A stretch of DNA of 64,000 nt from Hymenobacter artigasi (GTDB lineage: Bacteria > Bacteroidota > Bacteroidia > Cytophagales > Hymenobacteraceae). Location: positions 1 to 64,000 of the forward strand of contig NZ_JAAVTK010000004.1 of the NCBI RefSeq assembly GCF_012275535.1, read 5' to 3'. Below are positions 5,445-60,971 of this stretch, in pieces (the first letter of the stretch is position 1; the number at the start of each line of letters is the position of its first letter). The notes under the pieces were generated by a model. It had not been told where the DNA came from, did not search any database, and was given only the letters and a program-made list of their open reading frames with translations. Position numbers and translations under genes: made by a program.

Positions 5445-5560
5445 GGGGAATTTTGGGGTGGGAGGATGGATAGTTAAGGAATGGCCAGATGGCGGGACAA
5501 ACCTACGGCGGCGCATTGCAACGTGGCGGGTTTTTGCGTGTGTGTGGGTTTGTCGCACGT

Positions 5561-5649
5561 CATGCAGCGCGCAGCGAAGCATCTTTACCGCTTCGTTGCA
5601 TTCGTGTTAATTACTATTGAGGTAAAGATGCTTCGCTGCGCTCTGCATA
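5561..5649. repeat. Inverted repeat, 29-bp arms (diverged relative of 1127-1225)
   Basis: Arms 5561-5589 and 5621-5649 pair with two mismatches around GCGCAGCGAAGCATCTTTACC. It lies in the divergent spacer between aspA and the DUF885 gene. The CGCAGCGAAG core is shared with the 1127-1225 and 46601-46705 elements. Confidence 0.85.
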
Positions 5650-5680
5650 ACGGTCTTTTTTCATCGTTCAAACCCCACCC

Positions 5681-38540: not shown

Positions 38541-38729
38541 CGGAAACTCCCCTCCTTACCAAGGAGGGGACGTGGTCGCGAAGCGCGGCCACTGGGGTGG
38601 TGCCACCGGAGGGTAGCATCGGCATCAACTGAACGAAGCTGAGCCACACAGAACCCGTTCAACGCCTGCAACCGCCCCAGCCCGCGCTTCGCGCTGGCGT
38701 CCCCTCCTTGGTAAGGAGGGGAGTTTCCG
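38541..38729. repeat. Perfect 32-bp inverted repeat pair (CTCCCCTCCTTACCAAGGAGGGG)
   Basis: Arms 38541-38572 and 38698-38729 are exact reverse complements, and each arm is itself a short palindrome. The 125-base middle contains another inverted GCGAAGCGCGG pair. It sits 15 bases before the flippase ATG. Confidence 0.9.
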
Positions 38730-48322: not shown

Positions 48323-48433
48323 GTGTAGAGACGCATCCTTGCGTCTCGGCGTCCGCACCGTGTCATGTCGCATCCCGGTGTTCGCGCCATCTTCTGTCGT
48401 TCAACGGAGAGACGTAAGGACGCGTCTCTACAC
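48323..48433. repeat. Inverted repeat (GAGACGCAAGGATGC family)
   Basis: Arms 48323-48347 and 48409-48433 pair with two mismatches. It is the same family as 91-156, here with a 61-base centre. It directly follows the terminator. Confidence 0.85.
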
Positions 48434-52164: not shown

Positions 52165-53955
52165 CTACTCGCCCAGCTTGCCCACACCCAGCCAGCGCGC
52201 CACCGGGTAGCGGTTGTGGCCGGGCTCGTGGTAGGCCGAGCTTTGGTACACCCATTCGAGCTGAGCAGGGCCGTTGGCGGCAAAAGCCGCGTTGTCCTGC
52301 TTGAGTTTCTCCAGCCGCTCGCGCAGCTTCGGGTCGCGGCGGAGCAGGTCGGCGGCCAGGTCTTCAAACACGTAGTCGGAGAAATGCTCCTTCTGCTGAA
52401 GCACGCTGTCGAAAAAGCCCCAGGCGAAGAAGGAGTCGGTGGCCTGCGGCTCCAGCGTCTCCATCAGGTAGCGGATGGGGGCGGCATCGTTTAGGTACAC
52501 CACTAGGTCGCCGGGGAGAAAGGTGGTGGTTTCGGGGCGGGTTTGCAGGCGCACCTGGCTGTGCACGTAGTGGCCCTCGAAGGGCTTTGGCGTGGTTTTG
52601 AAATCCTCGAAGTAATACGTTTCCACCGGCGCGGTCACCTCGTGGGTCAGTGGCTCCAGCGTGGCCCCGTTGCGGCGCAGGATATCGGCCACTTCGGTCC
52701 AGGCTTTGGGAATGATGTAGGCCGTGGGCCGGCCGGCGGTGGCAGTTGGTTTGAAGGTGTTGAAATATTGCACGGGCCGGGTGAAGGGCGCGGTACGGTC
52801 GTAGTAGAGGCGAGGCTGGCCGCTCACATCGCTGGGCTTCATCCGGCCCTCGTAGCCCCGGAACTGCACGGTTTCGTGCTGGGTTTCATCCAGCGCCCAG
52901 GCGAGGGGGAAGGTGGTCTGGGCGGCCATGTCGGCAGCAGCAAGGGTACGCGCGGCGGCCAGGGCAGGGGCCTGCTGGCCCACGGTTTCCAGCATGGTGA
53001 GCAGGAAGTCGTAGGTGGCGTGCACGCGGGGCGCGAAAGCTTTCAGCATGTGCGTTTCGGGCATGAAGCCGATGGTGTTGAACAGCGCCGCGTACCCGGT
53101 AGAATAGCGCGGCGACTCCAGAAAAGCGCGCAGGCCGCTCTCCGGCGTCTGGCCCTCAAAGTCGACATAGGGCGTCATCGGCCATTTCTTTTTCTCCATG
53201 CCCTGGTACAGCGCCGGCAGCAGCTGGCCCTGGAGGAAAGTGCCCAGCGCCGGGGCCAGCTTGCTGTGCTGGGTGGCAATAAGCGTCATGGTGTATTGAT
53301 AGTCAGCCCCATTGGAAGTGTGCGTTTCCACGAACACGTCGGGCTGCCACTTTTGAAACAGCGCCGCGAAGGACTGCGCGTTGCGCGATTCCTGCTTGAT
53401 GTAGTCGCGGTTCAAATCCAGATGCCGGGCATTTCCCCGGAAGCCGTAGGCCACCGGCCCGTTCTGGTTCACGCGGGTGGTCGAGTTCCGGTTCAGCATC
53501 CCATCGATGTTGTACACGGGCACGATGACGACCGTCACCGCTTCAAGCAGCTTGCGCAGCCGGGGCTGCTGCATCAGGTCCCGCGCCAGCATCATGCTCG
53601 CGTCGATGCCCTCCGGCTCGCCGGGATGAATGCCGTTCTGGATGAATAAGACGGGCTTGCGTGCGGTAAGCTTTAGCTTGCCGTCCGGGCTTTCCTTCGA
53701 CGGCAAGCTAAAGCTTACCGCACTACTCAGTACCACTTCGTGCAGCGGCCGGCCGGCATCCGTCGGCCCGGCCTCGGCCAGGTGCAGGTAAGCCGGGTAG
53801 GCGGCGGCCAGCTTCTGGTAGTAGGAAATGCATTCGGTATAGGTGGCCGTGGTATTGCCGGCGGGGTCGTTCTCGAAGGGCGTGCGCCAGGCCGGAGCGG
53901 GGGCCGGTGGGGTGGGAGCGAGGGTCATGAGCGAAGCAAGGAGCAGGATGAACAT
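52165..53955 (-). CDS. M14-family zinc carboxypeptidase, secreted, with repeat-derived insert
   Basis: 596 residues with a signal peptide. QNGIHPGEPEG holds the zinc ligands H110 and E113 (HxxE), and FVETHTSNGADYQYTMTL holds the third His. About 490 residues follow, with little motif content. Residues 78-98 are written by a perfect 25-bp-arm palindrome (53661-53723). This insert sits just before the HPGE strand, and the reading frame is kept. The start ATG abuts another palindrome at 53955-54044. Probably cleaves C-terminal residues from peptides in the periplasm. Confidence 0.88.
   Translation of the reverse strand: MFILLLASLMTLAPTPPAPAPAWRTPFENDPAGNTTATYTECISYYQKLAAAYPAYLHLAEAGPTDAGRPLHEVVLSSAVSFSLPSKESPDGKLKLTARKPVLFIQNGIHPGEPEGIDASMMLARDLMQQPRLRKLLEAVTVVIVPVYNIDGMLNRNSTTRVNQNGPVAYGFRGNARHLDLNRDYIKQESRNAQSFAALFQKWQPDVFVETHTSNGADYQYTMTLIATQHSKLAPALGTFLQGQLLPALYQGMEKKKWPMTPYVDFEGQTPESGLRAFLESPRYSTGYAALFNTIGFMPETHMLKAFAPRVHATYDFLLTMLETVGQQAPALAAARTLAAADMAAQTTFPLAWALDETQHETVQFRGYEGRMKPSDVSGQPRLYYDRTAPFTRPVQYFNTFKPTATAGRPTAYIIPKAWTEVADILRRNGATLEPLTHEVTAPVETYYFEDFKTTPKPFEGHYVHSQVRLQTRPETTTFLPGDLVVYLNDAAPIRYLMETLEPQATDSFFAWGFFDSVLQQKEHFSDYVFEDLAADLLRRDPKLRERLEKLKQDNAAFAANGPAQLEWVYQSSAYHEPGHNRYPVARWLGVGKLGE
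53661..53723. repeat. In-gene palindrome, 25-bp arms
   Basis: GTGCGGTAAGCTTTAGCTTG at the start of the left arm (53661-53685) pairs with 53699-53723, perfect over 25 bp with a 13-base loop. It is in frame within the M14 gene (codons for residues about 78-98) and contains no stop. Confidence 0.93.
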
Positions 53956-54044
53956 AGTAGCGCGAACTTTGTAGTTCGCGTCCCCGCGCCGTTTGCAATC
54001 GTTGCAACGGCGCGGGAACGCGAACTACAAAGTTCGCGCTACTA
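53955..54044. repeat. Long palindrome (TAGTAGCGCGAACTTTGTAGTTCGCG family)
   Basis: Arms 53955-53998 and 54002-54044 pair over about 43 bases with small mismatches or indels near the centre. It separates the M14 start codon from the surE promoter, so M14 transcription must begin within or beyond it. Confidence 0.9.
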
Positions 54045-58510: not shown

Positions 58511-59953
58511 ATGCCTTGTTACGTAAAAAAAATGCTGGTTTTGGCCGGCACGCTATTGGTTATCAACGCCCCGGCTGAGGCCCAGTCGCGCAAAAAAGCC
58601 AAGGGCACGCCCGCGCCCGTTGCTTCAGTCAAAACCGACCAGACCGACTCGCTGGCCCTGCGCAAAATCTTCGACGAAGCCTTGCTGCGCGGCGAGAGCT
58701 ACGACAACCTGCGCTACCTCACCGGCACCATCGGGCCGCGCCTGTCGGGCTCGCCGCAGGCCCAGCAGGCCGTGGACTGGGGCAAGGCCACCATGGAAAA
58801 AGCCGGGTTCGACCGCGTGTACCTGCAGGAGGTAATGGTGCCGCATTGGGTACGCGGCAGCAAGGAGCGCGGCGAAATCATTGGGAATAAGGACAAAGGC
58901 GTGCGGGTGCCGGTGTGCGCCCTGGGCGGCTCGGTGAGCACCGGCGGCAAGCTGAAGGCTGGTGTGATAGAAGTGCACAGCCTGGAAGAAGTGAAAAATC
59001 TGCCCGAAGCGGCCGTGAAAGGCAAGTTCATATTCTACAACCGGCCCTTCAACGATGCTCTCATCGAGCCGGGCGCGGCCTACGGCGGGGCCGTGGACCA
59101 GCGCGCCAACGGGGCCATCGAAGCCGCCAAGCGCGGGGCCGTGGGGGCCCTGGTGCGCTCCATGACCAGCGCCCGCGACGATAACCCGCACACCGGCACC
59201 ATGCGCTACGCCGAGGGCGTGGCCAAGGTGCCCGGCGCGGCCCTCAGCACCAACGCCGCCGACCGGCTCAGCCAACTCCTCAAGGCCAACCCCGACCTGC
59301 AGTTTGAGCTGGAAATGGAGTGCATCACCCTGTCCGACGAAAAAAGCTACAACGTGGTGGGCGAAATCAAGGGCAGCAAATTCCCGCAGGAAATCATCAC
59401 CGTGGGCGGCCACCTCGATTCCTGGGACCTGGCCCAGGGCGCCCACGACGACGGCACCGGCTGCGTGCAAAGCATCGAGGCCCTGCGCTTACTGAAAGCC
59501 GCCGGCTTCAAGCCCGAGCGCACGGTACGCGCAGTGCTCTTCATGAACGAAGAAAACGGCACCCGGGGCGGCAACGAATACGCCCGCCTGGCGGCCCAGA
59601 ACCAGGAAACCCACCTCGCCGCCATCGAGTCGGACGGGGGCGGGTTCACGCCGCGCGGCTTCACCGTGGAGGGCGACCCCGCCACGGTGGCCAAGCTGGC
59701 CCGCTTCGCCCCGCTGCTGCGACCCTACCACGCCGCCGACGTAACGGCCGGCCACTCCGGTACCGACATTGAACCCCTGCAAGCCGCCGTGCATCCCAAA
59801 GCCCTTATCGGCTACAAGTGCGACTCGCAGCGCTACTTCGACATCCACCACACCGCCGCCGACACCTTCGACAAAGTGAACCGCCGCGAGCTGGAGCTGG
59901 GCGGGGCCAGCATGGCATCGCTGATTTACCTGCTGAGCAAGTACGGCCTCTAA
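58511..59953 (+). CDS. Secreted M28-family zinc peptidase with PA-like insert
   Basis: 480 residues from the ATG at 58511 (an ATG at 58532 is also possible). A signal peptide ends near APAEAQ. The zinc-site set is VGGHLDSWDLAQGAHDDGTGC, FMNEENGTRGG, ESDGGG and IHHTAADT, matching M28 aminopeptidases/carboxypeptidases related to PGCP. A PA-like region lies about 110-260. It removes residues from peptides in the periplasm or outside. Its stop codon is the first three bases of the 59951-60131 repeat. Confidence 0.9.
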   Translation: MPCYVKKMLVLAGTLLVINAPAEAQSRKKAKGTPAPVASVKTDQTDSLALRKIFDEALLRGESYDNLRYLTGTIGPRLSGSPQAQQAVDWGKATMEKAGFDRVYLQEVMVPHWVRGSKERGEIIGNKDKGVRVPVCALGGSVSTGGKLKAGVIEVHSLEEVKNLPEAAVKGKFIFYNRPFNDALIEPGAAYGGAVDQRANGAIEAAKRGAVGALVRSMTSARDDNPHTGTMRYAEGVAKVPGAALSTNAADRLSQLLKANPDLQFELEMECITLSDEKSYNVVGEIKGSKFPQEIITVGGHLDSWDLAQGAHDDGTGCVQSIEALRLLKAAGFKPERTVRAVLFMNEENGTRGGNEYARLAAQNQETHLAAIESDGGGFTPRGFTVEGDPATVAKLARFAPLLRPYHAADVTAGHSGTDIEPLQAAVHPKALIGYKCDSQRYFDIHHTAADTFDKVNRRELELGGASMASLIYLLSKYGL

Positions 59954-60131
59954 ATCACTGATTTTCGTGGATTAACCGTGATTTCGCTGATTCGTTAACG
60001 GGGTTTCCCGGCTATTCCGAACACAAGCCTGCTACGAAACAGAACGGCCCCACCCGCGCAAGCAGGTGGGGCCGTTTCTACGGAAAAAAAATCAGCGAAA
60101 TCACGGTTAATCCGCGAAAATCAGTGATTTA
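59951..60131. repeat. 42-bp-arm palindrome spanning stop to stop
   Basis: Left arm 59951-59992 and right arm 60090-60131 are reverse complements with one mismatch. The M28 stop (59951-59953) and the OmpA-like stop (60129-60131) are the outermost bases of the two arms, and a terminator lies in the centre. Confidence 0.93.
60043..60076. terminator. Bidirectional terminator in the palindrome centre
   Basis: AACGGCCCCACC (60043-60054) pairs exactly with GGTGGGGCCGTT (60065-60076). It serves the convergent M28 and OmpA-like genes. Confidence 0.82.
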
Positions 60132-60971
60132 GTTTTGGCCCAGAATCGAGAACAGCTCATCCAGCTTGGGCGTGAGGATGATGTCGGTGCGGCGGTTCAG
60201 GGCCTTGTTGGCGGGGGAGTCGTTGGCCACCACGGGCATGTACATCGAGCGGCCCGATGGCGTAACCTGGGCGGGGTCCATGCCGGCCGTGGTGAGCAGG
60301 CGGGTGATTTCCGTGGCCCGCATCACGCTCAGGTCCCAGTTGTCCTTGGCCCCGCTGGCGGTGGTGCCTTTGATAGGCACGTTGTCGGTGTGGCCTTCAA
60401 CCAGCACGTTCACGTCCTTGTTGTCTTTGAGGGCAGTGGCCAGCTTGCGCAGGGCATCCTGGCCTTTGGGGTCAACTTTGGTCGAGCCCGATTTGAAGAG
60501 CAGCTGCTCGGAAAGCGACACGTACACCTTGCCGTTTTTCACGCTCACCTGCAAGTCCTGGGCATTGAAGCCCAGCAGGGCATCCGAAACGCGCTGGCGG
60601 AGGGCTTTGGTAGCGGCATCTTTCTGGGCGAGAGCATTTTGTAGGTCCGCGATGCGGGCGTTTTTGTTTTGCAGGTCGGCCTCCTTGCTTTGCAGGTCGG
60701 CATTCTTGTTTTTGATGTCCGTTTCGGCATCGCCCAGATTCTGGTTCAGCTGGCTAACCTGCTGGTTTTTGTTGAGAATCGAGTTGCGCAGCTCATCCTC
60801 GTTGCGGGCTTTGGCCGAGGCCAGGGCATTTTTTTCCAGCGCGAGTTGGTCGCGCGATTTGGTGAGGTCGGAGTTCTGCTGTTGCAGGGCGGCAATTTCT
60901 TTTTGGTTGCAGCCGGGCAGTGCCAGCAGCGTGGCACCTAGCAGCAGGGTGGGGAGGAGGCGGAAATTCAT
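60129..60971 (-). CDS. OmpA-like lipoprotein with coiled-coil stalk
   Basis: 280 residues. The lipobox is LALPGC. A long heptad-rich coiled coil (about 22-125) is followed by an OmpA-type peptidoglycan-binding domain (about 160-275: NVLVEGHTDNVPIKG, YMPVVANDSPANKALNRRTDIILTP). This is the layout of Pal/MotB-like or stalk lipoproteins that tether the outer membrane to peptidoglycan. It is convergent with M28 and divergent from the subtilase. Confidence 0.9.
   Translation of the reverse strand: MNFRLLPTLLLGATLLALPGCNQKEIAALQQQNSDLTKSRDQLALEKNALASAKARNEDELRNSILNKNQQVSQLNQNLGDAETDIKNKNADLQSKEADLQNKNARIADLQNALAQKDAATKALRQRVSDALLGFNAQDLQVSVKNGKVYVSLSEQLLFKSGSTKVDPKGQDALRKLATALKDNKDVNVLVEGHTDNVPIKGTTASGAKDNWDLSVMRATEITRLLTTAGMDPAQVTPSGRSMYMPVVANDSPANKALNRRTDIILTPKLDELFSILGQN

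Follow-up and report, generated by a model that had tools for sequence, protein, structure and literature searches.

A REPIN-type palindrome in frame within an M14 carboxypeptidase gene of Hymenobacter artigasi, with a probable RAYT partner

The palindrome and its host gene

The window—the whole 64,000-nt stretch of Hymenobacter artigasi DNA that was analysed—contains a gene for a zinc carboxypeptidase of the M14 family, within which a short palindromic element is embedded (Table 1). The Pfam Peptidase_M14 match (60.5 bits) covers residues 44–196 of the 596-residue ORF and hence spans the element. A sequence-only reading of this locus had described a perfect inverted repeat with 25-bp arms and a 13-base loop that runs in frame, without a stop, and writes 21 residues. 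All of this holds: the two arms are 100% complementary, and on the coding strand the element occupies codons 78–98, which read SAVSFSLPSKESPDGKLKLTA. Folded as single-stranded DNA, it forms one hairpin of −32.7 kcal/mol against a mean of about −9 for shuffled sequences; the z-score is −11.8 for one strand and −10.9 for the other. One arm alone reaches −6.2 kcal/mol (z = −3.1), and five of 200 shuffles were equally good. The left arm is free of stops in one frame of three, that which encodes AVSFSLP, and the right arm in two of three; the restriction on the left arm means that only a minority of insertions into genes could be kept.

Table 1. Coordinates of the M14 element, its parts, its host gene, and sites occupied differently in a sister genome. 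Ranges are positions in the window; the last row gives contig positions in the H. artigasi genome (G000).
Feature	Position	Strand	Remarks
Two-armed palindromic element, REPIN-type	53661..53723	-	63 nt, in frame in M14 gene
Arm 1, 5' in gene sense	53699..53723	-	GTGCGGTAAGCTTTAGCTTGCCGTC; encodes AVSFSLP; on its own folds into an 8-bp stem closed by a TTTA loop
Inter-arm loop, 13 nt	53686..53698	-	Identical in G000, G029, and G135; differs in G044, G038, and G119
Arm 2, 3' in gene sense	53661..53685	-	Reverse complement of arm 1; encodes DGKLKLTA
M14 family zinc carboxypeptidase gene, element host	52165..53955	-	596 aa; codons 78–98 are the element
G000 sites with other-family palindrome in G029	C1:95016, C2:109804, C8:53841, C9:134658, C9:145397, C9:160189		

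In an AlphaFold2 model of the protein (mean pLDDT 74.4), residues 77 to 101, approximately, make up a low-confidence stretch that contains no strands of three or more residues and lies between strands 71–76 and 102–107. Confidence falls below 50 at residues 85–90 and 92–97; a folded insert is therefore not asserted, nor any claim made on its shape. The position of the insert in the model fits a permissive loop.

The 5′ end of the M14 gene has a second and unrelated palindrome (53955–54044, with 39-bp arms of the GTAGCGCGAACTTTGTAGTTCGCG type), beyond which is a divergent gene that we take to be surE-like. Further long inverted repeats of several kinds occur in the window at 1127–1225, 5558–5652, 38541–38729, 48323–48433, and 59950–60132.

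The protein closest to the query, at 95% identity, is that of H. siberiensis, a close relative whose M14 gene bears this insert too. The stretch from VVL to F[IV]QNG measures 81 nt in H. artigasi, as against 57 nt in 21 of 27 compared genes, these 21 being free of the element. The net gain is thus 24 nt (eight residues), and by length some 39 nt of an older loop would have been replaced. Forms of that older loop (VVLSADGDADPASTRRKNRRILF and relatives) can be recognised in genera as distant as Pedobacter. Judged by these lengths, the element probably replaced a conserved loop and is not a clean insertion of 21 residues; residues 78–98 had been read beforehand as an extra segment, and they are indeed absent from most homologues examined, but the protein is longer by eight residues and not by 21.

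A repeat family in the H. artigasi genome

The 25-mer arm has 47 forward and 44 reverse matches in the H. artigasi genome at up to three mismatches, whereas the reversed control has none. Around these matches 52 elements were kept, of which 43 are two-armed and nine one-armed. The two-armed copies have 86 arm ends, whose consensus, GTG[C/A]GGTAAGCTTTAGCTTGCCGT, is near-invariant. A GTAG tag is not conserved (it adjoins seven of the 86 ends); what is conserved ahead of the stem is GTG. Within the genus, the arm is present at up to one mismatch in 27 of 120 genomes, H. artigasi included.

Two features of REPINs are found in this family: two inverted REP hairpins with a spacer occur in many copies per genome (43 two-armed copies), and the copies are mostly extragenic, with two of the 43 lying in genes that have family support on both sides. 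A third, the alignable spacer of fixed length that is a trait of the SBW25 GI family and is not known to be general among REPINs, is absent, as the inter-arm loops range from 12 to 100 nt and are unrelated between copies (best local pair score 12, against 10–11 in three shuffled sets). Two sources for these loops were considered and set aside. Native DNA of the site is ruled out for the copy in murC (see below), where the empty site has another sequence, and copying from elsewhere in the genome finds no match for the two loops tested (those of E37 and murC), which occur once each. Many copies adjoin an ATG: by raw count, 36 of the 43 two-armed copies have one at most about 40 nt beyond an end, and 28 have one at most about 8 nt away.

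The RAYT gene and its flanking copies

The H. artigasi genome has seven Y1_Tnp matches, six of them above the cut-off. One, the RAYT gene at C1:9739–10413, is bracketed by two-armed copies of the arm family; it scores 36.5 bits against Pfam Y1_Tnp and 80.2 bits against NCBIfam NF047646 (REP_Tyr_transpos), barely over the cut-off of 80. Relatives of this gene with 84%, 67%, 64%, 63%, and 61% identity were found among the 120 genomes of the genus (the 64% match, in G058, is partial and covers residues 73–224), and each is likewise bracketed. Two-armed copies therefore stand on both sides of the gene at all six loci of 61%–100% identity, H. artigasi included. Loci of 55% and 50% identity have one arm each, that of the latter with three mismatches in 17, and no arms were found at the other 22 of the 30 RAYT loci examined, which are more distant; these 30 are the stronger of the matches.

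The eight genomes with the highest arm counts include six whose RAYT is at least 61% identical. Arm-rich genomes without a close match are G051 (59 + 64 arms; best match 48%) and G144 (46 + 46 arms; 83% complete; no match). The next in arm number, G127 (21 + 20), G135 (20 + 17), and G029 (16 + 20), have best matches of about 50%, and G029 has no RAYT at the site corresponding to that of the H. artigasi gene. This RAYT probably moves the element.

Two other Y1_Tnp genes of H. artigasi (C11:80211 and C1:380971) have palindromes of their own on both sides. Their flanks suggest that the genome may hold several RAYT/REP families.

Copies within genes and the murC insert

Candidates for in-gene copies were elements within an ORF of at least 100 residues that reaches at least 30 codons on both sides of the element. 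This applies to twelve of the 52 elements, and in only two of these, M14 and murC, does a family match extend across the element. The remaining candidates were rejected. In E05 (SpoU methylase) and E34 (FabG-like), the family match starts after the element, so that the true start codon probably lies downstream of it; neither profile library searched gives a family for E25 or E28; E02, E24, E23, E48, and E50 have no Pfam family; and in E13 a single, diverged arm precedes an NTP-transferase domain. In G044, another carrier of the M14 insert, that copy is the only one accepted as in-gene among 30 loci inspected for ORFs around the 51 arm matches listed (C50:1078, which lay off-centre, was judged by eye).

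The murC copy is two-armed, lies at C9:63669–63751, and occupies residues 162–189. Its host scores 362.5 bits against TIGR01082 (cut-off 335.1), and the Pfam Mur_ligase_M match, at 116–329, spans the element. The M14 and murC copies share a reading frame, AVSFSLP...GKLKLTA. The gene murC is essential in other bacteria. The insert is absent from all 20 other genomes examined, including the sister genomes G029 and G135 as well as G011 and G120, and these carry a short loop, e.g., LLLPATPEAPIVVEADEYDRSF. In H. artigasi, the element and a few extra bases take the place of the 14 bases that otherwise separate CTGCCCG from CCCATC, the shared flanks. That a mobile palindrome can enter coding DNA and be translated had been proposed from the M14 copy; the family of 43 two-armed copies and the second in-gene copy in murC strengthen the proposal, in which the element would move and its codons would presumably be translated.

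The 120 murC proteins listed comprise 115 with the short loop and five with a longer one. Two of the five (P0121 and P0125) resemble a decayed insert of this kind, and the other three (P0122–P0124) may be so, though less certainly. In 29 more distant genes (the best-scoring others), the murC loop is longer and variable. That of G131 contains another REP-like inverted pair, in frame, with a score of 17 against a shuffled maximum of nine; L340 scores ten against eight, and the other 27 are not above the shuffled maximum. Some other long murC loops in this set of 29 have AATTAAAAATT- and CCAACAACC-like repeats. The idea of a slot for palindromes within genes would rest on few clear cases.

Distribution of the M14 insert

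Among 80 M14 loci from named genomes, the element occurs only in Hymenobacter ruricola, in decayed form. The other 79, from other Hymenobacter, Adhaeribacter, Pontibacter, Pedobacter, and others, have no element, and the expectation that homologues would lack residues 78–98 is thus borne out; the other finding that would have spoken against the sequence-only reading, an arm without further copies in the genome, is likewise contradicted. These loci overlap in part with the G genomes discussed below.

The loop is covered by 118 of 120 aligned M14 proteins. Arm-like residues are seen in seven (P0001, P0003, P0007, P0009, P0010, P0020, and P0092), those of P0003 being weak, and odd or short loops occur in, for example, P0015, P0076, P0078, P0082, P0086, P0094, P0096, and P0111. 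The loops of P0015 and P0078 (GFSPQ...GLKPA) could encode a palindrome of another family; as these were seen as protein only, they were not counted.

Of 118 G genomes with a match, 45 had their M14 gene read as DNA, and six of these carry the insert. Its arms are perfect in G000, G029, G135, and G044 and decayed in G038 (H. ruricola) and G119, and the loop region is longer in the six carriers (81–90 nt) than in 21 non-carriers (57 nt). With the loop left out, a DNA tree of the same 27 genes distributes the carriers over four distinct lineages (G000/G029/G135; G038; G119; and G044). A single clade of carriers is rejected (AU p = 1.5e-6), with four changes forced by well-supported branches. A larger protein tree, with many weak branches, also mixes carriers among non-carriers; its counts set carriers against the odd-loop group only.

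In all six carriers the old loop is gone, and the element is joined to its surroundings in the same way, with CTGAG[C/T]A preceding GTG on the left and GCAA[A/G]CC following on the right. In addition, the loops of G038 and G119 are related to each other, and an unusual right flank is common to both. The M14 genes of G044 and G000 have a third-codon identity of 0.678, and the arms in G044 are perfect around a different loop. Identity between these two genes is not raised beside the insert, and recent recombination is hence unsupported as the source of the G044 copy.

Comparison with the sister genome G029

Eighteen of the 52 H. artigasi elements are without a counterpart in the stretches of G029 compared. 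Eight such sites could be aligned across their flanks, and none is a clean empty site. At six of the eight (E04, E08, E28, E34, E36, and E37; Table 1), G029 has a palindrome of another family in the same place, with scores of 18–31 against shuffled maxima of 8–11; at E20 and E49, its inverted repeat is not above the shuffled maximum. As a baseline, 300 pieces of 150 bp were drawn at random from the window at large, genes included, and four of them contain an inverted repeat scoring at least 12.

The M14 element itself does not differ between the two genomes at any of 48 arm and 15 loop positions, as against 49 of 400 flanking bases. Over 13 shared copies, arms differ at 16 of 623 positions and flanks at 242 of 5193 (p = 0.013); these copies were chosen by arm similarity and the comparison is thus biased, so that slower evolution of the arms was set aside as evidence.

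Relation to known systems

REP pairs within ORFs are described for the GTAG/CGTC REPs, where more than half of the intragenic REPs are dimers or groups encoding 20–30 residues, supposed to be neutral in linkers and loops (PMC3733652). The same account has GTAG REPs accompany tyrosine transposases and reports two Xanthomonas species with different REPs at about the same site in recB (PMC3733652). Translated intragenic REP pairs are therefore already in print for other bacteria, and the kind is known (PMC3733652). The Hymenobacter pairs resemble these in being in frame within genes; they differ in family and phylum, in the position of GTAG at only seven of 86 ends, in their hosts (M14 and murC), in the scatter of one site's carriers over a tree, and in the replacement of the target. 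The main text of PMC3733652 does not mention Hymenobacter.

REPINs, as described in PMC3116915, consist of two inverted REPs that make one hairpin, lie near a RAYT gene, and are mostly extragenic; the GI REPINs of SBW25 have a fixed spacing (71 bp between 16-mers) and a spacer that is less conserved but alignable (PMC3116915). The Hymenobacter element is likewise a two-armed hairpin that adjoins a RAYT and is mostly extragenic; it departs from the SBW25 GI type in its unrelated loops and in the two copies within genes. As for the enzyme, REP recognition by TnpA-REP is described in PMC8266576, and cleavage and strand transfer in vitro are reported in the literature for other TnpA-REP enzymes.

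Rickettsia RPEs are about 150 bp long, and nearly half of their copies lie in ORFs, in frame in unrelated genes (PMC10969869). The Hymenobacter palindromes share the latter behaviour; as far as that description goes, they are set apart from RPEs by a length of 63 nt, by a RAYT with flanking copies, and by the exceptional status of in-gene copies (two of 43). The main text of a 2025 REP survey (PMC12306157) mentions neither Hymenobacter nor RAYT, and no account of a REP-type or palindromic repeat, or of its transposase, in Hymenobacter was found in the openly available literature. Going by these literature searches, the arm family is undescribed, as are the two genes that host it and the in-gene site at which it recurs. 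What is unusual here is that loops are unrelated between copies, that the target is replaced, and that the in-gene site is recurrent.

Origin of the M14 insert

It is highly probable, in our view, that a REPIN-type palindrome, likely mobilised by the RAYT of its own genome, replaced a loop of the M14 protein and left the frame open, with its 21 codons predicted to be translated. The RAYT would transpose the element as a single strand; target DNA would be replaced rather than plainly inserted into; the M14 insert would be tolerated at a site that is presumably a flexible loop; and the insert would have spread among four Hymenobacter lineages. A chance palindrome in an ordinary, variable loop might be entertained, given that the M14 loop does vary in several relatives (the eight odd or short loops listed above), but this is refuted by the 47 + 44 genomic matches to the arm, against none for the control, and by a fold with a z-score of about −11. 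A palindrome of the Rickettsia type that reached Hymenobacter is very improbable. The sequence-only reading had drawn this likeness, and it stands as far as behaviour goes, both palindromes lying in frame in unrelated metabolic genes; the architecture is that of REP/REPIN with RAYT and not of RPE, the lengths differ (63 nt against the ~150 bp given in PMC10969869), and the arms occur in 27 of the 120 genus genomes. The hairpin arms, the RAYT bracketed by copies, and the two-armed design together argue for an element of REPIN type. That the palindrome is retained for a function in RNA or DNA (an mRNA stem, attenuation, or protein binding), and is not merely tolerated, is unlikely. The lack of any difference between G000 and G029 in arms or loop, amid diverged flanks, and the perfect arms of G044 would suit such a function, but the arms have decayed in H. 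ruricola and G119, and the M14 gene of most relatives read is intact and free of the element.

The closest contest concerns how often the REPIN-type element arrived. On one account, the RAYT family struck the same M14 codon at least four times, making it a true hot spot. The scatter of carriers over the tree and the four forced changes speak for repeated insertion, as do the perfect arms of G044 around another loop at a third-codon identity of only 0.678 and the flank identity to G000 that is not raised. Against it stand the identical left and right junctions of all six carriers, with the same loss of the old loop, and the related loop and unusual right flank of G038 and G119. The alternative is one origin followed by old short-tract exchange. 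On the sequences compared, the two would be about evenly matched; the shared junctions tip the balance slightly towards one origin, leaving repeated insertion a serious contender a little short of even.

Implications

The unrelated loops and the replaced target are a poor fit to simple copy-and-paste of a whole REPIN. A broader and rather doubtful idea is that some enzyme loops of Hymenobacter are standing slots for palindromes, into which RAYT-type families swap in frame with only the arms templated and the loop new each time; such slots would be a source of new protein loops from hairpin DNA. What the M14 and murC copies offer is a palindrome in frame in genes that is tied to a recognisable transposase, where the passage on RPEs in the review cited above names none (PMC10969869). 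As sister genomes with and without the murC insert are available, an old question becomes testable, namely whether small palindromic DNA makes new protein segments and by what means a RAYT places it.
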